Assembly: GCA_029667085.1 (NCBI GenBank)
Contig: JARUHJ010000003.1
Location: 62,001-126,000, forward strand
From: Deltaproteobacteria bacterium IMCC39524
Lineage (GTDB): Bacteria; Desulfobacterota; Desulfuromonadia; Desulfuromonadales; BM103
Direction: 5' to 3'
DNA length: 64,000 nucleotides
This document shows, one piece after another, positions 8,710 to 62,018 of this stretch. The notes under the pieces were generated by a model. That model ran no database searches. It saw only the letters and a list, made by a program, of their open reading frames with translations, and was not told the DNA's origin. Position numbers and translations under genes: made by a program. How positions within the stretch are numbered: position 1 is the first letter of the stretch; each line of letters starts with the position of its first letter.

Positions 8710-9402
8710 CTAGGCTGACTCCGCATTATTTGCAACAGTTTCAGCTTCTGACATACTCTGAATCAGTACTCCGGCACCGATGGTTGCAGCGTGCCGTACC
8801 AAGCTATCTGCCCGTTCTCCATCATGGTTCCTAAAGGCTTCGATCATATTGCGGTGCTCTTCCACTGATATTTCCATACGGCCGGGCTGTGAAAGAGACG
8901 CCAGGCGCAGGCGCTTGAACCTCATCACCAGCTGGTTAATCATCTCGTAGAGTTTATCGTTACCGGCCGCCTTGATAAAGAGATCGTGAAACTCATTATG
9001 CACACGGAAAAAGCTCTTGACGTCACCCTCCACGGCGATCTTCTTAAGCCGCTCGTTAATTGATTCGAGCCGATCGATATCTTTCACGGTCAGTTTTTCT
9101 GCTGCCATCTTCGCAGCAAAACCTTCAAGGAGAATCTTGATCGCATAAAACTCTTCTATATCCCGCTCTGACAAGGACGCAACAACGGCTCCCTTGCGTG
9201 GAACCACAACAAGATAGCCCTCAGATTCAAGCTGCCGAAAAGCCTCCCTGATCGGGGTACGGCTGATGCCGAAACGTTCCGCCAGCTCTGGCTCCGAGAC
9301 TCGTTCGCCTGGTTTCATCGTTCCCTTGAGGATAGCATCCCGGATCATCTCCAGGATTTTTTCTCTTAGGGTCTGATGTCTTTCAATTGGTTTTTTGCGC
9401 AA
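8710..9402 (-). CDS. GntR-family (FCD/VanR-type) transcriptional regulator
   Basis: A 230-residue DNA-binding regulator. The N-terminal winged helix is canonical for GntR (LAERFGISRTPIREAFRQLE, then the wing at GYLVVVPRKGA). The C-terminal helical FCD domain shows the usual metal/ligand-site pattern: NEFHDLF, EEHRNMIEA and LVRHAAT. FCD proteins commonly sense small carboxylates. I place the start at TTG 9402, preceded by GGAG with 7-base spacing. The longer GTG frame (9450) would begin inside the operator and upstream of the predicted transcription start. The TGTATAC palindrome sits between and over the promoter elements, so it is probably autorepressed. Identical sites precede the ATP synthase and rnhA-nuo genes, suggesting an energy-metabolism regulator. 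Confidence 0.9.
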   Translation of the reverse strand: MRKKPIERHQTLREKILEMIRDAILKGTMKPGERVSEPELAERFGISRTPIREAFRQLESEGYLVVVPRKGAVVASLSERDIEEFYAIKILLEGFAAKMAAEKLTVKDIDRLESINERLKKIAVEGDVKSFFRVHNEFHDLFIKAAGNDKLYEMINQLVMRFKRLRLASLSQPGRMEISVEEHRNMIEAFRNHDGERADSLVRHAATIGAGVLIQSMSEAETVANNAESA

Positions 9403-9432: not shown

Positions 9433-9460
9433 ATTGTATACAGTATACACCCAATGTCAA
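9433..9460 (-). promoter_or_regulatory. predicted promoter of the GntR gene
   Basis: On the minus strand, a perfect -35 box TTGACA (9455-9460) is followed after 16 bases by TACAAT (9433-9438), matching five of six -10 positions. Transcription should begin near 9425, upstream of the TTG start at 9402. The operator palindrome occupies the spacer and overlaps the -10. Confidence 0.75.
9435..9449. promoter_or_regulatory. GntR operator palindrome (site 1, autoregulatory)
   Basis: TGTATACAGTATACA is a perfect 15 bp palindrome with one central base. GTATAC half-sites fit the known VanR/FadR-type GntR consensus. Its position over the -10 of the regulator gene predicts autorepression. Confidence 0.8.
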
Positions 9461-9557: not shown

Positions 9558-9839
9558 ATGGATCCGATTGGACATCTTCGCTTCTCTATCGGCGCACTTG
9601 TATCGATCATCGCGATCGGCACTTTTGGTTATTCCATGGTCGAAGGTTGGTCGCTTTTCGATTCCCTCTACATGACCGTCATTACCCTGGCAACAGTCGG
9701 CATCAAACTCACCGACAACGAAATGACCTTTATTCCACCATCCTACACTGTCATTGAACCGATATCCGTGCTGATCACACTTGGTGAAATACCTGCTATC
9801 GAAAAGCTGGAAAAGATTGCCGGAGGCTTGCAGCAATGA
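9558..9839 (+). pseudogene. remnant of a TrkA-linked potassium channel with internal deletion
   Basis: The 93-codon frame begins like a two-TM K+ channel: a first membrane helix (residues 8-27), then the pore helix SLYMTVITLATVG at 37-48. The expected selectivity filter TVGYG is broken after TVG. The sequence continues directly with NEMTFIPPSYTVIEPISVLI and LGEIPAIEKLEKIAGG, which reads like the last part of a TrkA-C (RCK) domain. The second membrane helix and the whole TrkA-N domain are therefore missing, consistent with an in-frame deletion of several hundred bases near 9702. The start has a GAGG ribosome site, and the stop overlaps the next start (ATGA). It is most likely non-functional as a channel. 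An assembly deletion is the alternative. Confidence 0.65.
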
Positions 9840-17832: not shown

Positions 17833-17847
17833 GGTATACTGTATACG
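17833..17847. promoter_or_regulatory. GntR-type operator palindrome (site 2, ATP synthase operon)
   Basis: The 13 bp core GTATACTGTATAC (17834-17846) is a perfect palindrome identical to the core at the GntR gene. It is centred 54 bases upstream of the first atp gene. On the minus strand a TATACA inside it could serve as a -10, so binding would block transcription. Confidence 0.72.
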
Positions 17848-20885: not shown

Positions 20886-22733
20886 CTAACGTTTTAGAAT
20901 GACAGATAAAATTGCAAGTGCAGCGGGAGTCACGCCAGGAATTCTACCGGCCTGACCGAGGGTGCGAGGAGCGACCTTCATCAACTTCTCACGAACCTCT
21001 GCGGAGAGACTCCCCACGCTGTCATAATCAAAATCAACCGGGATAGCCAGGGCCTCCAGACGTCTGAAACGCTCAACCTGCTCGTGCTGGCGACGGATGT
21101 AGCCCGCATATTTAACCTCAGTTTCCAATTCATTGCGAACCTCGCCAGACATCTCGGCCAGCCAGGGATCCAGAAAATCGAGATTGACCAGTCTCAGCTC
21201 GGGTCTGCGCAACAACTCCTCAAGAGAGGCACCATTCTTCAGGTCCGGCAACCCCAAACGCTTGATTGCTTCCTGGTTGCCTGGTGAGACCCTCGTTATA
21301 CGCAAACGCTCACGTCCCTCCTCAAGAGAAGCCAACTTTGCAGAAAAGCGCAACCAGCGCTCCTCAGGCAACAAACCAACCTCATAACCAAGGGGACTGA
21401 GCCGTTGATCAGCATTATCTTCGCGCAAAAGGAGACGGTACTCAGCCCGGGAAGTAAACATTCTGTAAGGTTCCTTTGCGCCTAAATTGACAAGGTCGTC
21501 AATCAAAACCCCCAAGTAACCCTGTTCTCTGCCAATCACAACGGGTTCACGGCCCTGAATCTGTAGTGTAGCGTTAATACCAGCCACCAGACCTTGACCA
21601 GCGGCTTCCTCATAACCTGAGGTGCCGTTGACCTGCCCGGCGTGATAAAGACCTTTTATAAGCTTCGTCTCCAATGACGGGCGGAGTTGTATCGGGTCGA
21701 CATAATCATACTCAATTGCGTACCCGGGACGCATTATTTCAACCTTTTCCAGGCCTTTCATGGTTCTCAGGTAGGCCAACTGAACATCAACCGGTAGAGA
21801 GGTTGAAACGCCATTAGGATAAATTTCCCCACTCGTCAAGCCCTCCGGTTCGAGAAAAATCTGATGTTGCTCCTTCTCCGGAAAGCGCACCACCTTATCT
21901 TCTATGGAAGGACAATAACGAGGCCCGACCCCTTCTATAACGCCTGAATAGAGAGGGGAGCGGTCCAGGCCGCCACGGATCACCTCGTGGGTCCTCTCGT
22001 TGGTATAAGTGATATAGCAGGGAACCTGGGGACGGTCTATCGACACTGTGTCGGCGGAGAAAGGCTGTGGAGAGTCATCGCCAGGCTGCGCCTCCAGAAC
22101 TGAAAAGTCGATCGTTTCAGCAGCAAGCCGGGGCGGCGTACCTGTTTTTAAACGCCCAACAGTAAAACCGAGTTCGCGCAAATGGTCAGAAAGCCCTTCC
22201 GATGGCGGCTCTCCGGCACGGCCACCGGGATAATTCACCAGTCCAACATGAATCAAACCACGCATGAAGGTACCGGTTGTCAGAACCACGGCAGGGGCCT
22301 CAAAGAGCAGGCCGTCCCGGGTCTCGACACCGGCGACACGTCCATCCTCCACCAACAACCGCACAACCTGGGCCTGCTTGAGATCAAGGCCCGACTGGGT
22401 CTCAACAACCAGCTTCATCCGTGCACGGTAGAGATCGCGATCAGCCTGCGCCCTGGAAGCCCTAACTGCTGGCCCCTTCTTGGTATTAAGTAAACGAAAT
22501 TGAATCCCTGTTGCATCAATATTCCTGGCCATCTCACCGCCGAGCGCATCAATTTCTCGCACCAGGTGACCCTTGGCCAACCCACCAATTGCCGGGTTGC
22601 AGGACATTTGCGCTACCGCATCCAGGTTGAGCGTTAGCAGCAAAGCCCGGCAACCCATACGTGCCACCGCCAACGCAGCCTCGCAACCCGCATGACCAGC
22701 GCCAACAACGATCACATCGTATTTTTCAACCAT
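20886..22733 (-). CDS. mnmG: tRNA uridine-5-carboxymethylaminomethyl modification enzyme MnmG
   Basis: MnmG (GidA), with MnmE, adds the carboxymethylaminomethyl group at U34 of certain tRNAs, using FAD. The 615-residue protein has the FAD-binding VVGAGHAGCEAALA. It also has the conserved CNPAIGGLAKGHLVREIDAL, TGTFMRGLIHVG and ETKLIKGLYHAGQVNGTSGY segments. I use ATG 22733 (MVEKYDV). The upstream ATG at 22778 would add 15 non-family residues and run through a parS site. Confidence 0.96.
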   Translation of the reverse strand: MVEKYDVIVVGAGHAGCEAALAVARMGCRALLLTLNLDAVAQMSCNPAIGGLAKGHLVREIDALGGEMARNIDATGIQFRLLNTKKGPAVRASRAQADRDLYRARMKLVVETQSGLDLKQAQVVRLLVEDGRVAGVETRDGLLFEAPAVVLTTGTFMRGLIHVGLVNYPGGRAGEPPSEGLSDHLRELGFTVGRLKTGTPPRLAAETIDFSVLEAQPGDDSPQPFSADTVSIDRPQVPCYITYTNERTHEVIRGGLDRSPLYSGVIEGVGPRYCPSIEDKVVRFPEKEQHQIFLEPEGLTSGEIYPNGVSTSLPVDVQLAYLRTMKGLEKVEIMRPGYAIEYDYVDPIQLRPSLETKLIKGLYHAGQVNGTSGYEEAAGQGLVAGINATLQIQGREPVVIGREQGYLGVLIDDLVNLGAKEPYRMFTSRAEYRLLLREDNADQRLSPLGYEVGLLPEERWLRFSAKLASLEEGRERLRITRVSPGNQEAIKRLGLPDLKNGASLEELLRRPELRLVNLDFLDPWLAEMSGEVRNELETEVKYAGYIRRQHEQVERFRRLEALAIPVDFDYDSVGSLSAEVREKLMKVAPRTLGQAGRIPGVTPAALAILSVILKR

Positions 22734-55652: not shown

Positions 55653-58247
55653 ATGAACAACAGATGGGTGACAACTGGTTTCGATGGTCTTGATGAAATC
55701 CTTGATGGCTTGCGGATGGGCGACAACGTCGTCTGGAAGGTTGATAGCATTGAAGATTATCAGTACTTCGTCACTCCTTATGTAAAGCAGGCCCTTGCCG
55801 AGAAGCGAAAGGTTGTCTATTTCCGCTTTGGCCAGCACCCCCCTGTGATTGACCCAAAATTGCCTATTGAAACCTATGTGCTCGATCCGCGCGAAGGTTT
55901 CGAGACCTTTGCCTGTGCTATTCACGAAATTGCCACCGAAAAAGGCGTTGGCGCCTTCTACGTCTTCGATTGCCTCTCTGACCTGTTGTCAGCCTGGGTC
56001 ACCGATCATATGATCGCCAACTTTTTCCACGTCACCTGCCCTTACCTGTTCAAGCTTGATACGGTGGCCTATTTCGCCCTGTTGCGCAATCGTCACGCCC
56101 ACAAAACCATCGCCCGCATTCGTGAGACGACCCAGGTTCTGCTGGAACTGCACAACCGTGAAGGGCAACGATATGTACACCCGCTCAAAGTCTGGGAGCG
56201 ACATTCCCCGACCATGTTCCTGCCACATCGACAGACCGGTGACAGCTTTGTCCCCCTTGCCAACAGCCTTGAAGCAACTGAGCTTCTGTCTAAAGCCTAT
56301 CGTCAGGTTCAGGATGCCGGCAGTCGTCGTCTCGACCACTGGCATCGCCTCTTTTTGCAAGCGGAGGAACTGAATTCTGAAAAGGTCTCGCAGCAGGAGC
56401 AGGAAAAGATGGTGGCACATCTTTGTCGTCACCTGATTGGTCGCGAAGACAATATCCTCAACCTGGCGCGGCGCTATTTTACACTCAGCGATCTGCTTTC
56501 CTACAAAGCGCGCATGATTGGCACCGGGTTTATCGGCGGCAAGGCGGTCGGTATGCTACTGGCGCGGCGCATTCTGGAAACCCAGCCGGATGCGGATTGG
56601 TCTGAACGACTGGAGCAGCACGATTCTTTCTTTGTCGGGTCAAACGTCTATTACTCTTATATTGTCAATAATGGTTGGTGGGAGCTCTATGCGGCACAGA
56701 AAACACCGGAAGGCTATTTTGAGGCCGGTGCCGAACTCCATCAGAAGATGTTGACAGGATCTTTCCCGGAACAGTTACGGGAAGATTTTATGAGCATGCT
56801 CGATTATTACGGGCAATATCCGATTATTGTCCGTTCAAGCTCATTGCTGGAAGACGGATTTGGCAACGCTTTTGCCGGCAAATACGACAGTTTTTTTTGT
56901 GCCAACCAGGGCTCGCCGGAAGATCGATACAATGCCTTCGAAGATGCCGTTCGCAAGGTTTTCTCCAGCACCATGAGCGAAGACGCCCTGACCTATCGCA
57001 AGCAACGCGGTCTTGATCAACAGGTGGAGCAGATGGGCCTTCTTGTTCAGCGTGTGTCCGGCTCTTACCATAAAAATTATTACTTCCCGGAATTGGCCGG
57101 TGTCGGCATTTCTTACAATACCTTTGTCTGGGACAAGCATATGGATCCGAAAGCCGGTATGCTGCGGCTGGTTCTTGGGCTTGGCACACGTGCGGTTGAT
57201 CGGGTCGAGGGAGATTATCCACGGATTGTCGCTCTTGACGAGCCGATGAAGCTGCCACTCAAAGGTTATGAAGATATTCGCCGTTTTTCCCAGAAGGATG
57301 TCGATCTGGTCAATATCAGCGAGAATGACCTGCAATCGCTGCCACTGTTCAACCTGGTCAGTGAAGGCATTGACCTGAACCTGGAGTGTTATGGTGTTCC
57401 GGACCAGGAAACCATTTCCCGATTAAAAGAGCGTGGGCGGCCGGCTCAAGATGTCTGGCTCCTGACCTTTGAGCACCTGCTGAAAAAAACGGACTTCCCT
57501 GTGAGAATGCAGCTGTTGCTCAAGACCCTTGAAAAAGCTTATCAGTACCCTGTTGATATAGAATTTACCGTTAACAAAACGAAGAATGGCGCGTCCAAAA
57601 TCAATCTGTTGCAATGCCGGCCACTGCAGACCAAGGGGTTAAAAAAACGAATCAGTATTCCAAGTGAGATCGAACCGGAAAAGGTCTTCTTTAGTGCGGA
57701 TGGCGGCTTTATGGGTGGCAATTCGGCATTGCCTATTAAACGGATAATCTGGGTTGATGCCAAACAGTACTCACAGTTGTCCCTTTCCGATAAACACGAA
57801 GTTGCTCGCTTGATTGGCCGTCTTAATAGGCGTATCAAGGATCGCGAACAACAACCGACTCTGCTGCTCGGTCCGGGGCGTTGGGGAACCTCCACACCGT
57901 CGCTGGGCGTTCCGGTCAAGTTTTCGGAGATAAACAATATGGCTGCCATCGGTGAAGTTGCCTTTGCTGAAGGGGACCTGATGCCTGAACTTTCTTTTGG
58001 CTCACATTTTTTTCAAGATCTGGTTGAAGCCGATATCTTCTATCTGGCATTGTTCCCGGACACTTTCCCTTGCACGTTGAACAGTGCCTGGCTTTATCAG
58101 CGCACCAACCTGCTGGAAGGCTTGATGCCAAGCAGCAGTCGGTTCAAGCCTGTTGTCAAGGTTGTCGATGTTCAGCCGGAAAATTTACTGATGTTGGCTG
58201 ATGTTGTAACGCAGCAATTGAGGTGTTTCTGGGTTGAGCAGATATGA
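55653..58247 (+). CDS. degenerate KaiC-like domain fused to PEP synthase-type ATP-grasp (PPDK_N) domain
   Basis: An 864-residue protein. Residues 1-250 resemble a KaiC/RadA-like RecA fold (TTGFDGLDEILDGLRMGDNV, then AFYVFDCLSDLLSAWVTD as a Walker-B-like strand), but the P-loop is absent. Residues about 285-655 are the ATP-binding half of PEP synthase/PPDK, with FIGGKAVGMLLARRIL, VRSSSLLEDGFGNAFAGKYD and LLQCRPLQ. A C-terminal 200-residue domain contains GPGRWGTSTPSLGVPV. The phosphohistidine and PEP-binding domains of PEP synthase are lacking, so it cannot be an ordinary PEP synthase. Its function is unknown. An AAAGGGGA ribosome site precedes the ATG. Confidence 0.75.
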   Translation: MNNRWVTTGFDGLDEILDGLRMGDNVVWKVDSIEDYQYFVTPYVKQALAEKRKVVYFRFGQHPPVIDPKLPIETYVLDPREGFETFACAIHEIATEKGVGAFYVFDCLSDLLSAWVTDHMIANFFHVTCPYLFKLDTVAYFALLRNRHAHKTIARIRETTQVLLELHNREGQRYVHPLKVWERHSPTMFLPHRQTGDSFVPLANSLEATELLSKAYRQVQDAGSRRLDHWHRLFLQAEELNSEKVSQQEQEKMVAHLCRHLIGREDNILNLARRYFTLSDLLSYKARMIGTGFIGGKAVGMLLARRILETQPDADWSERLEQHDSFFVGSNVYYSYIVNNGWWELYAAQKTPEGYFEAGAELHQKMLTGSFPEQLREDFMSMLDYYGQYPIIVRSSSLLEDGFGNAFAGKYDSFFCANQGSPEDRYNAFEDAVRKVFSSTMSEDALTYRKQRGLDQQVEQMGLLVQRVSGSYHKNYYFPELAGVGISYNTFVWDKHMDPKAGMLRLVLGLGTRAVDRVEGDYPRIVALDEPMKLPLKGYEDIRRFSQKDVDLVNISENDLQSLPLFNLVSEGIDLNLECYGVPDQETISRLKERGRPAQDVWLLTFEHLLKKTDFPVRMQLLLKTLEKAYQYPVDIEFTVNKTKNGASKINLLQCRPLQTKGLKKRISIPSEIEPEKVFFSADGGFMGGNSALPIKRIIWVDAKQYSQLSLSDKHEVARLIGRLNRRIKDREQQPTLLLGPGRWGTSTPSLGVPVKFSEINNMAAIGEVAFAEGDLMPELSFGSHFFQDLVEADIFYLALFPDTFPCTLNSAWLYQRTNLLEGLMPSSSRFKPVVKVVDVQPENLLMLADVVTQQLRCFWVEQI

Positions 58248-58268
58248 GTCGCTCTGACCGTCTTCAAG

Positions 58269-58283
58269 TGTATACAGTATACA
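58269..58283. promoter_or_regulatory. GntR-type operator palindrome (site 3, upstream of rnhA-nuo)
   Basis: TGTATACAGTATACA is identical base for base to the site at the GntR gene, and is again followed by ATT. It lies 6 bases upstream of a -35 box. Confidence 0.75.
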
Positions 58284-58289
58284 ATTCAG

Positions 58290-58318
58290 TTGACATTTAT
58301 TGGTCGTTTCTTTACAGT
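58290..58318 (+). promoter_or_regulatory. predicted promoter upstream of rnhA-nuo
   Basis: A perfect -35 TTGACA (58290-58295), a 17-base spacer and TACAGT (58313-58318), four of six -10 matches. The adjacent operator could block or assist polymerase. Confidence 0.6.
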
Positions 58319-58581
58319 GCAAAACTGCTGATGGCGGTAAAGATGCCGGGGTCAGTTTGCCCCAGAGATGTTGGCCCTTCTGCTTTGTTGTAGAGGGGTT
58401 TTTGTTTTTTCTCCTGTTTGGGTGTTTCTGCATATTCTATGCAACAGGAACACAGCAATTAGCTTTGCCTCATTGCTCTTGCGGGATTTTAATTTGTATA
58501 CCGGTTTAACAGGGCTGAATTGCAAAAAAAGCTGTGTTAGGATGCTCTCGTGTTTTTATGATCATCTTTTCAGATTGGAAC

Positions 58582-59049
58582 ATGGCAAGTATGAGTAAAC
58601 CTGCAGAGAAACTGGTGGAAATCTTCTCCGACGGTGCCTGCTCCGGTAACCCGGGGCCGGGTGGCTGGGGAACGGTTCTGCGCTGTGGCGATTATGAAAA
58701 AGAGTTCTCCGGTTATGACCCGGAGACCACTAATAACCGCATGGAGTTGATCGGTGCGATCGCCGGCCTGGAAGCCTTGAAGCGACCCTGTCAAGTCAGG
58801 GTGACCACCGATTCACAGTATGTAAAAAAAGGTATGACCGAGTGGATTGATGGTTGGGTCAAGCGCGGCTGGAAAAATTCCCAGAAGAAGCCGGTGGCCA
58901 ACCGTGATCTTTGGGAGCGCCTGCTGGAATTGACCGACCCGCACGAGGTTGAGTGGTGCTGGGTACGGGGGCACGACGGCCACGCTGAAAACGAGCGCTG
59001 CGATGCCCTGGCAAGGGCAGCGATAGAGACGGCACGGGATGGGCTTTAA
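58582..59049 (+). CDS. rnhA: ribonuclease HI
   Basis: RNase HI cuts RNA in RNA-DNA hybrids. The 155-residue protein has the four catalytic acids: Asp in [17 protein letters not shown], Glu in [13 protein letters not shown], Asp in [10 protein letters not shown] and Asp in [10 protein letters not shown]. The basic protrusion [14 protein letters not shown] is present. The start is ATG 58582 or ATG 58591 three codons later; both follow TTGGA. nuoA begins 114 bases after its stop with no terminator visible, so readthrough into the nuo operon is possible. Confidence 0.95.
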
Positions 59050-59163
59050 TCCCCCGCCAAAAGGTGGACTTGACCCATTTTTATGCTAGTCTGATTCGAG
59101 ACTTCAATGATAATTGACGATTGGTTTGTTCCCTCTTTTCAGAAGGTTACTTAACTTAAGCAT

Positions 59164-59631
59164 ATGTCACCTGCGACAGCCCCCTCACAGCTGATGGCGA
59201 CGCCACCCGAATTCGAGTCTTACCTGGCTCTGGGAATCTATGGTGGTATAGCCATTTTCCTGGTTGCGGTTCTTTTGCTGCTCTCCTGGGGGCTTGGCCA
59301 CAAGACCCGTTCCCGTCAGAAGCAGGAGCCTTACGAGTCGGGCATTCTGCCTCTCGACAATGCCCGCCTTAAAGGCCCGGTGCCCTTTTACCTGGTTGCG
59401 ATCTTCTTTGTTATCTTCGATGTCGAGGTCCTCTTTGTCGCCTCCTGGGCGGTTGCCTATGAGCGGCTCGGTTGGTCTGGTTATGCCCACGTCTGTTTTT
59501 TCATCTTCATCCTTTTCCTTGGCCTGGTACATATCTGGAAAACCGGTGGACTCGACTGGGAACCGCGAGCCCAGCGCGAGCGGCGCAGGGCGCAGAATGA
59601 TCAGCGCAGAGCAAAGGGGAGCGCATCATGA
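59164..59631 (+). CDS. nuoA: NADH-quinone oxidoreductase subunit A
   Basis: A 155-residue membrane subunit of Complex I with three helices. It has the conserved [12 protein letters not shown] loop (equivalent to the YECG loop at the quinone site) and [17 protein letters not shown] with its acidic residues. An arginine-rich C-terminal tail ([18 protein letters not shown]) is longer than usual. Its stop overlaps the nuoBCD start (ATGA). Confidence 0.95.
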
Positions 59632-62018
59632 GCGAAGAGTTGCCTCCCAATGTCATACTGACAACCCTGGACGATGCTATCAACTGGGGGCGCAAGAACA
59701 GCCTCTGGCCGATGTTCTTCGGTCTTTCGTGTTGTTTCGTCGAGATGATGACCAGCATGACGCCCCGTTTCGATATTGCCCGCTTCGGCGCCGAGGTCTT
59801 GCGCAGCACACCGCGTGAAGCCGATCTGATGATCATTTCCGGAACTCCTTTTAAAAAGATGGGCGCCAGCATGTTGCGTGTCTACGAGCAGATGGCCAAC
59901 CCCAAGTGGGTTATGGCGATGGGCAGTTGTGCAAACTCCGGCGGCATGTACGATGTCTACAGCGTCATGCAGGGCGTTAACCAGGTGCTGCCGGTCGATG
60001 TTTACGTGCCCGGCTGTCCACCACGTCCGGAAGCATTTCTGCAGGGTCTGATCATGTTGCAGGAAAAGATCGCCGCAGATGAGCAACCCGCCCGCAAGGT
60101 GCTCGGCATGCAAGGCGGCAGCGAGGGGACAGACGGACCGCTACTGATAGACGGCGTCAGCAAGAGCCGCGACACCCGTGGACCAGGCTTCGGCAACAGC
60201 CCTAACCGCGGCACATCCAGCCAGGCGCCAAATTTCTGGGGGAGCCGTGCCGAAGAGTTATGGCGTCCAGATCAGCCACGTGTAGACTTCGTCGCCTCAA
60301 CACCTGACCTGCGCAAAACCCTGCACGAACATTTTGGTGACCGGGTGCGTGAAGACGCCAAGGGCGCTGATATGCCAACCTTCTGGACCGACACTGAGAC
60401 GGCTCCAGAGTTGCTGCGTTTCCTCAAGGAACAGGCGCCGACCCGATACCGCCGCCTTGAAGACCTGACAGCAATCGACGAGCGGGCACGGAAAAAACGT
60501 CCCAATCACGATTTCACTCTCGTCTATCATCTCTTGTCCTTCGATGACCCCGGCTACCTGCGGGTCAAGGTCCCCCTGCAGGGAGAAACACCGACGGCAC
60601 CGACGATCACCGACGTCTGGACCACGGCCAACTGGTATGAGCGCGAAGCCTACGACATGTTCGGCATCGATTTCAAAGGCCATCCCGACCTGCGCCGTAT
60701 TCTCATGTCTCACGACTGGGAAGGGCACCCCTTGCGCAAGGACCATATCTCGCGCGCGACCGAGATGGAGCCCTTCACACCGGAAGCGGCAATGAAGATG
60801 GTGCCGCGTGATGCGGACAGCTTCTTCAGTGGCAAAGAGATGGAGCGGGTTGACGATGAGACCATGATTCTCAATCTTGGTCCTCATCATCCCGGTACTC
60901 ACGGCGTTCTGCGCCTGGTCGCCAAGCTCAATGGTGAAGAGGTCGAGGATGTTGATGTCGACCTCGGTTACCACCATCGTGGCGCGGAGAAGATCGCGGA
61001 ACGGCAACACTGGAACCAGTACATCCCTTACACCGACCGCATCGACTACCTCTCCGGCGTGCAGAATAACCTCGCTTACCTGTTGCCATTGGAGACCATG
61101 CTCGGTGTCGAGGTCCCGGAGCGGGCCCAGGTGATTCGGGTGATGCTCTGCGAGCTTTTCCGCTTGTCCAACCATCTGGTCTGGCTCGGCACTTTCGCTC
61201 ATGATGTCGGTGCCATGACGCCGGTCTTCTACACCTTCGAGTCGCGGGAAAAAATCTTTGACATCATCGAGCAGATCACCGGTGGCCGTATGCACCCGGC
61301 CTGGCTGCGCGTTGGTGGTTTGCCTATGGACCTTCCCGATGGCTGGAAGCAGACCGTCGATATCTTTACGCGCGATTTTGACAAGCGCATCGATGAGCTC
61401 GACCGCATGTTGACCAACGGACCGATCTTCCGTGCGCGCACCGAAGGTGTTGGTGCCACGACCCTTGACGAAGCGATCGACTGGGGGATGTCCGGTGCCA
61501 ACCTGCGCGCCTGCGGACTGGAATGGGACCTGCGCAAAAAGATGCCCTACTCCGGTTACGAACGCTTTGATTTCGAGATTCCCACTGAAACCGGTGGCTG
61601 CAGTTATGCGCGTTACCTGGTAAGGCTCAACGAAATGCGCCAGAGTTTGCGCATCGTCAAACAGGCCGCGGCCGATATGCCGGGTGGTCCTTACGTGAGC
61701 AACGATTTACGTTATGTCTATCCGGAACGCAATGCCGGCAAAAAAGATATCGAATCACTGATTCATCATTTTATGAATGTGACCCGCGGCCTGACGCCAC
61801 CACGTGGCGAGTGTTACCGCGGCATCGAATCGAGCAAGGGTGAGTGCGGTTATTACGTGGTCAGCGACGGTGGCAACACTCCGTATCGTTTGCGCATCCG
61901 CACCCCGAGCTTCGCCCACATGCAGGTTTTCCCCAAGATCACCAAGGGCTGGATGATTTCCGACTTGATCATGGTTTTGGGGGCAATTGATTTTATTCTC
62001 GCAGATTTGGACAGGTAG
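59628..62018 (+). CDS. nuoBCD: NADH-quinone oxidoreductase fused subunits B/C/D
   Basis: A 796-residue three-subunit fusion forming the core of the Complex I connecting module. The NuoB part (about 1-165) has the N2 cluster cysteines C35, C36 ([10 protein letters not shown]), C101 (GSCANSGG) and C130 (VPGCPPRPE). A flexible linker (about 165-210) is rich in Gly, Ser and Pro. NuoC (about 215-390) contains [19 protein letters not shown]. NuoD (about 405-796) begins [19 protein letters not shown] and ends ADLDR. NuoCD fusions are common and NuoBCD fusions are known but rarer. No frameshift is seen across the joins. Confidence 0.96.

Follow-up and report, generated by a model that had tools for sequence, protein, structure and literature searches.

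A palindrome upstream of rnhA and nuo is a probable operator of a GntR acetate-oxidation regulon and may drive a short RNA in Desulfuromonadales

Genetic organisation of the locus

We analysed a stretch of 64,000 nucleotides (hereafter the window), in which a gene with a PEP synthase/PPDK ATP-binding domain is followed on the same strand by rnhA, which encodes RNase H, and by a complex I operon starting with nuoA (Table 1). The gene after nuoA encodes the NuoB, NuoC and NuoD domains fused in one protein of 796 amino acids; a second complex I operon, with a separate NuoB, is present elsewhere in the genome (L013). Upstream of rnhA, one finds a palindrome, a promoter-like sequence with a -35 box (TTGACA, 58290-58295) and a -10 box (TACAGT, 58313-58318), an intrinsic-terminator-like hairpin (58373-58400), i.e., between this promoter and rnhA, and a conserved block. 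Another conserved block lies between rnhA and nuoA. The window also contains the gene of a GntR/FCD regulator and the ATP synthase F1 genes, each preceded by a site similar or identical to the palindrome.

Table 1. Coordinates of the features of the window. G016, G010 and G017 are close relatives of the genome carrying the window (G000).
Feature	Position	Strand	Basis
GntR/FCD regulator gene (gntR)	8710..9402	-	Pfam PF00392 and PF07729; orthologues; TTG start at 9402 inferred from alignment
Autoregulatory operator overlapping the gntR promoter	9435..9449	.	TTGAC (-18 from the palindrome centre) and TACAAT separated by 16 nt; 8/8 genomes
ATP synthase F1 operator GGTATACTGTATACG, 2 mismatches, 54 bp before atpX	17833..17847	.	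Motif scan; atpX site in 6/8 genomes
Gene with PEP synthase/PPDK ATP-binding domain	55653..58247	+	Pfam PF01326
Operator palindrome TGTATACAGTATACA	58269..58283	.	Motif scans; identical (15/15) in G016, G010 and G017
Promoter-like TTGACA-17-TACAGT	58290..58318	+	Sigma-70 scan, 10 of 12; 6 bp separate it from the palindrome
Proposed short structured RNA, about 86 nt	58325..58410	+	Conserved in 6 genomes; start inferred from the -10 box
Intrinsic-terminator-like hairpin and T-run	58373..58410	+	Terminator scan; 11-bp stem
Block upstream of rnhA, TTTTAATTTGTATAC and CTGAAT..TAGGAT	58488..58550	+	Conserved; promoter-like by eye
rnhA (RNase H)	58582..59049	+	Pfam PF00075
Intergenic rnhA-nuoA block with TGGAC..TATGCTA, possible promoter	59064..59100	+	Conservation
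nuoA	59164..59631	+	Pfam; fused NuoBCD gene follows
Fused NuoBCD gene	59628-62018	+	Pfam

The palindrome recurs in the window and in the genome

The initial annotation of the window had described the palindrome upstream of rnhA as identical to the autoregulatory site of the regulator and as lying six bases before TTGACA-17-TACAGT, and our scans agree on both points. Exact copies of TGTATACAGTATACA are found twice in the window (at 9435, before the GntR gene, and at 58269), against 0.00 in 100 dinucleotide shuffles. A third identical copy had been announced in the window, but the ATP synthase site differs at two positions. The half-site TTGTATACC described upstream of rnhA does exist, at 58494-58502 instead of 58495-58503, i.e., one base off, and is a part of the conserved block rather than a palindrome.

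The genome (3.78 Mb, 19 contigs) has one more exact copy, before icd on a different contig. Allowing up to two mismatches, we found 18 sites in the genome vs 5 for the reversed pattern. The refined pattern TGYATACWGTATRCA, which was picked after inspecting the sites of this first scan, gave 12 sites with at most one mismatch vs 1 for the reversed control. The site before the ATP synthase F1 operon is a thirteenth, weaker one. Taken alone it is not beyond chance, because shuffles of the window average 0.55 matches at up to three mismatches, and we regard it as an operator because it is conserved in relatives.

A GntR regulator of the FCD type

The product of the regulator gene has an N-terminal GntR winged helix-turn-helix and a C-terminal FCD domain, which places it among the FadR-type members of the GntR family; both Pfam profiles score above their cut-offs (67.8 bits for PF00392 and 96.3 bits for PF07729), and the first matches of a fold search are GntR/FCD regulators as well. 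The structure model has a mean pLDDT of 80 and a pTM of 0.62, and fold matches over the full length give poor superpositions (rmsd about 10 Å), so the domain arrangement of the model is untrustworthy. The metal site of FCD domains consists of Asp/Asn and three His. With this motif tentatively placed, H138, H142 and H186 are invariant in 20 aligned sequences, the last His is not conserved, and H138 presumably occupies the place of the Asp.

A profile search with an alignment of the GntR proteins confirmed 284 relatives on genome contigs. The best 80 of these 284 carry Desulfuromonadales, Geobacteraceae or Deltaproteobacteria labels (e.g., the genera Geotalea, Citrifermentans and Oryzomonas), with one MAG labelled Chloroflexi and one Desulfobacteraceae among them. 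The gene at 9558-9839 is divergent from gntR; from the type of sequence, we presume that its product is channel-like. Malonomonas, Citrifermentans and Geotalea have similar genes next to gntR.

The same operator precedes genes of acetate oxidation and energy conservation

We named the genes of 14 further stretches around the sites with NCBIfam and Pfam. The 12 sites of the genome lie before gntR, icd-mdh, gltA, acnB, sdhC, an sfrAB-like oxidoreductase pair, the second complex I operon (nuoA2), the ATP synthase F0 genes (atpZ-I-B-E), a gene for an NrfH-like multihaem cytochrome and glyQ; one of the remaining two is the palindrome at 58269 and the other (L008) has no gene assigned. The oxidoreductase pair, which we call SfrAB-like, consists of a glutamate-synthase-small-subunit-like and a NuoG/formate-dehydrogenase-like protein.

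Seven named genomes, picked among the carriers of a GntR orthologue, have 7-12 sites each vs 0-1 for the control pattern. When reference genes were placed by tblastn, 59 of the 65 sites were found at most 500 bp upstream of one of them (with one site at -8 by the inferred start and two overlapping sites counted apart), and six matched none. The count drops to 56/65 when we exclude the three sites whose reference gene (ppcA, a fumarase-like gene and a CoA-transferase-like gene) was added once the site had been seen. Including our own genome, a site is present in 8/8 genomes at icd, acnB, nuoA2, sfrB and gntR, in six at atpX, in five each at gltA and sdhC, and in three each at atpZ and glyQ.

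The initial annotation had proposed that one regulator jointly controls itself, ATP synthase and complex I, and had suggested a motif scan upstream of citrate synthase. It was right on the regulon, which is larger than proposed: gltA carries a site in this genome, and the same operator precedes most of the acetate-oxidation TCA genes examined. A single operator thus seems to be common to genes of the TCA cycle, NADPH oxidation, complex I and ATP synthase over two orders, and the palindrome at 58269 is very probably an operator of this regulon, to which the regulator is predicted to bind. Acetate oxidation in Desulfuromonadia powers the reduction of metals and electrodes, and the shared operator would give a direct and testable map of its control.

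The position of the operator relative to the promoter differs between targets. At icd, TTGACA lies 26-27 positions before the centre of the palindrome in 8/8 genomes, and is separated by 15 or 16 nt from TATACT; at acnB, TTGAC lies 26-28 positions before it, also in 8/8. At these two genes, as at gntR, the promoter core and the operator overlap, which predicts steric repression. In other cases TTGAC comes after the palindrome: at +14 for the 58269 site of the window, at +17 for ppcA in Malonomonas and for sdhC in one genome of five, at +16 or +17 for gltA in four of five, and at +17 to +19 for nuoA2 in five of the eight genomes. The three Geobacterales genomes have a different arrangement at nuoA2, and sfrB and atpX, like most sdhC sites, show no TTGAC at a fixed position.

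Operators co-occur with the regulator

We scanned 136 genomes of the order, taking matches of at least 240 bits as orthologues of the regulator. The orthologue was found in 102 genomes, all of which have 4-13 sites. Three or more sites are present in 102/102 genomes with the orthologue vs 12/34 without it, and the other 22 of these 34 have at most one. If only genomes with at least 90% completeness are considered, the figures are 71/71 vs 2/17. Ten of the 12 genomes that have at least three sites and no orthologue are less than 90% complete; the other two (G100 and G101, both of family f12) have 7-8 sites each and are real exceptions. No close GntR was found in them, even when the query was restricted to the DNA-binding part (best E 2.1e-15, at most 48% identity). 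Eight of their 15 sites were inspected (L282-L288): they precede icd and glyQ in both genomes, acnB and gltA in G100 and sfrB in G101, and one is targetless.

The operator therefore co-occurs with the regulator in addition to sitting at the regulator's own promoter (a gntR site in 8/8 genomes). The 22 genomes with neither regulator nor more than one site keep gltA in 18 cases and a relative of sdhC in 18 (one a fragment), so the sites vanish along with the regulator though the targets remain. For the same reason, the absence of the regulator cannot in general be put down to a lost TCA cycle. Lineages that lack regulator and sites and have the target genes are natural controls.

Relation to known regulators

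PmiR of Pseudomonas aeruginosa responds to 2-methylisocitrate and regulates the methylcitrate cycle. This GntR/FCD protein is the closest solved relative of the window's regulator by sequence (PDB 7xp0 and 7xp1; E 1.4e-34) and comes first in the fold search, with 31-32% identity. The two differ in their targets, the regulon described here covering the TCA cycle and respiration. The ligand of PmiR makes a TCA-type acid a sensible candidate in our case.

The regulator may be partly known, because in Geobacter sulfurreducens GSU3370, also of the GntR family, reportedly binds the promoter of gltA and has a role that is little known (PMC10599522, citing Ueki and Lovley 2010). Our comparison is one of descriptions, and the likeness is that of a GntR protein acting at gltA. 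In Geotalea, Citrifermentans and Oryzomonas, an orthologue of the window's gene is accompanied by sites before icd and further genes, and in Citrifermentans also before gltA. The passage on GSU3370 in PMC10599522 describes no wider regulon. HgtR (GSU3364), a locus distinct from GSU3370, is described in PMC7726332 as a repressor of gltA, atpG and nuoA in Geobacter, and in PMC7894505 as induced by hydrogen, with a consequent lowering of citrate synthase. Compared by description, its set of targets functionally matches the regulon found here. A GntR protein at gltA is thus already known from these passages, and in the literature searched we found no description of the wide regulon, the operator or the RNA discussed below, parts of which may stand in Ueki and Lovley 2010.

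A conserved stretch downstream of the palindrome may be a short RNA

Scans of the region gave two promoter-like and two terminator-like sites, vs 1.0 and 1.4, respectively, in shuffles, so the number of terminator-like sites does not exceed chance. The promoter-like sequence next to the palindrome is the only sigma-70-like site found on the + strand in 58200-59300. The hairpin that follows had been overlooked in the initial annotation, and transcripts from this promoter would most likely stop at it (58373-58410), which would produce a short structured RNA.

A NuoA match was present in 122 genomes; we used the 30 with the best ones, of which 29, including our own, have sequence upstream of the locus. 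The palindrome (up to two mismatches) is present in seven of them: G000, G016, G017, G010, G002, G007 and G003. A conserved RNA-like element follows it in six of the seven, each time a few hundred bases before rnhA, and the palindrome is separated from the -35 box by 6-7 nt in these six (by eye). The -10 box is identical in G016, G010 and G017, and over 58319-58408 these three genomes show 99%, 98% and 84% identity to ours, respectively. In G017, the most distant of these three close relatives, the palindrome (15/15) and the -10 box (6/6) are intact, the -35 box matches at 4/6 positions, the spacer at 8/17 (47%) and the next 79 bases at 52%. G007 and G003, from other genera, have a recognisable version of the RNA. 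In G002 the palindrome is accompanied by a promoter-like stretch and a hairpin, as judged by eye, with no match to the covariance model.

The predicted fold is better than that of shuffled sequences (z -2.9, 1/200 as good). The alignment has two helices with three two-sided changes, a number reached by 8/500 shuffles (one slid version reaches four), and a covariation score reached by 127/500; the covariation is weak. The covariance model built from the six genomes (R1) gives them 58-111 bits, as expected of seeds, and 37.5 bits (E 4e-7) to the best non-seed among the 136 genomes of the order. Some match at E <= 0.1 is present in 47/136 genomes. Of the weaker matches, 24 were fetched, and none has a palindrome (up to two mismatches) nearby, one exact palindrome being more than 1 kb away; we take them as chance terminators. 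By this count the RNA is found in 6/136 genomes, four of the six in one genus.

Small RNAs located behind a gene, with a promoter and a terminator of their own, form a known class. The candidate resembles them by its promoter-like, structured and terminator-like elements between two same-strand genes, and differs in that it is known from sequence alone and matches no Rfam family at the gathering score (best chance-like match, E 0.3). The same Rfam search gave nothing for a GEMM-like riboswitch motif, which we had suspected, and no match was found in the plasmid records searched. A search for complements of the seed (up to two mismatches, both strands, four genomes) showed no excess, with 40 matches vs 33 for the control; four of the 40 are the RNA itself, and one that was inspected (window position 21863) is inside an open reading frame. 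A small peptide is an unlikely product of the stretch: G000, G016 and G010 have an open frame of 20 codons, and G007 one of 25 codons in the matching frame, but in G017 a one-base shift displaces it and in G003 that frame is closed and a different one open; no good ribosome site was seen before it.

Possible transcription of rnhA and nuo from promoters of their own

The gene order around nuoA is more conserved than the palindrome, since rnhA precedes nuoA in 29/29 genomes with upstream sequence and the palindrome, in 7/29 (both counts including our own genome), is not conserved with rnhA-nuo across relatives. Each of the two genes is preceded by a conserved block. The one before rnhA is found, by eye, in most genomes of our own genus, and TGTATAC occurs at most 150 nt from rnhA in 10/29 genomes, ours included. 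Within the block before nuoA, TATGCTA is exact in 11/16 genomes of the family (counted by eye); the block fits no sigma-70 spacing, again by eye, and is possibly a promoter of another type. We speak of possible promoters because the sigma-70 scan of the region flagged neither block.

Our preferred explanation, held with moderate confidence, is that the palindrome is an operator of the GntR regulator in an acetate-oxidation regulon, that at this locus it drives a short RNA, and that rnhA-nuo are transcribed mainly from their own promoters. The sites, their targets, their co-occurrence with the regulator, the conservation and the hairpin are computed observations. The regulator would bind the palindrome and control the TCA enzymes, the SfrAB-like NADPH oxidoreductase, complex I, ATP synthase and itself, most likely by repression at icd, acnB and gntR, with release probably caused by a TCA-type carboxylate. 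At 58269, where the operator sits just upstream of the -35 box, a short terminated RNA is the most likely product, rather than direct control of rnhA-nuo. We tentatively propose that this would be an undescribed small RNA, restricted to a few genera of one Desulfuromonadales family, acting as a post-transcriptional arm of the regulon. We know of no short RNA in such a regulon, where it would be an added layer. If true, one carboxylate-sensing regulator would set the TCA enzymes, both energy-coupling complexes and the RNA together.

The initial annotation had placed rnhA-nuo under the palindrome, by transcription from its promoter through rnhA into nuo, which would give the regulator direct control of this complex I operon. 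Several observations fit this view: the invariant order of rnhA and nuoA, the lack of any other + strand sigma-70-like site in the region, the operator at another complex I operon in 8/8 genomes and the absence of a terminator between rnhA and nuoA, which the annotation had reported and where our scan of the + strand found none either. We nevertheless consider it unlikely, given the hairpin on the way to rnhA, the few relatives with the palindrome and the conserved possible promoters before both genes. The proposed regulon stands, and it is its specific control of rnhA-nuo that these data weaken. The annotation had itself named transcription of nuo only from a promoter between rnhA and nuoA, together with a palindrome not conserved in relatives, as the outcome that would speak against it, and what we found is close to this.

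The RNA could also be a regulated leader of rnhA-nuo, i.e., an attenuator or riboswitch, the operator setting initiation and the hairpin setting read-through. The structured RNA and its terminator-like hairpin do lie a few hundred bases before rnhA in all six genomes that have them, but Rfam has no matching riboswitch, a conserved possible rnhA promoter lies downstream of the hairpin, and most genomes lack the element, which makes this reading improbable. Finally, the hairpin might be a mere terminator of the PEP synthase-like gene, whose stop is 126 bp upstream, and the palindrome a relic or decoy missing from most relatives. In a stricter terminator scan of 21 genomes (in 10 of whose loci, including G007 and G003, the PEP synthase-like gene was not located), 3/7 genomes with the palindrome pass (G000, G016 and G010), and the hairpin may serve the upstream gene because 4/14 without the palindrome also have one before rnhA. 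We regard this as the least probable reading, and quite doubtful, since palindrome, -10 box and RNA stretch are conserved while adjoining bases diverge, and the spacing to the -35 box is kept in the six RNA-bearing genomes.

Variant operators and unexpected targets

glyQ, encoding the alpha subunit of glycyl-tRNA synthetase, is an unexpected member of a TCA regulon. It has the operator in our genome (L006:6001-6015), in Geothermobacter, in Geotalea and in both f12 genomes (L184, L200, L287 and L288). The form of the operator also varies: in Desulfuromusa, overlapping tandem operators, GGTATACTGTATACAGTATACC, precede atpX (L214:3001-3022); elsewhere, a form with three half-sites precedes nuoA2 (L013 and others). 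In Malonomonas, an operator precedes a gene for a small multihaem cytochrome (L164:3001-3015, - strand), which we presume from its resemblance to be PpcA; if so, the regulon would connect to extracellular electron transfer.
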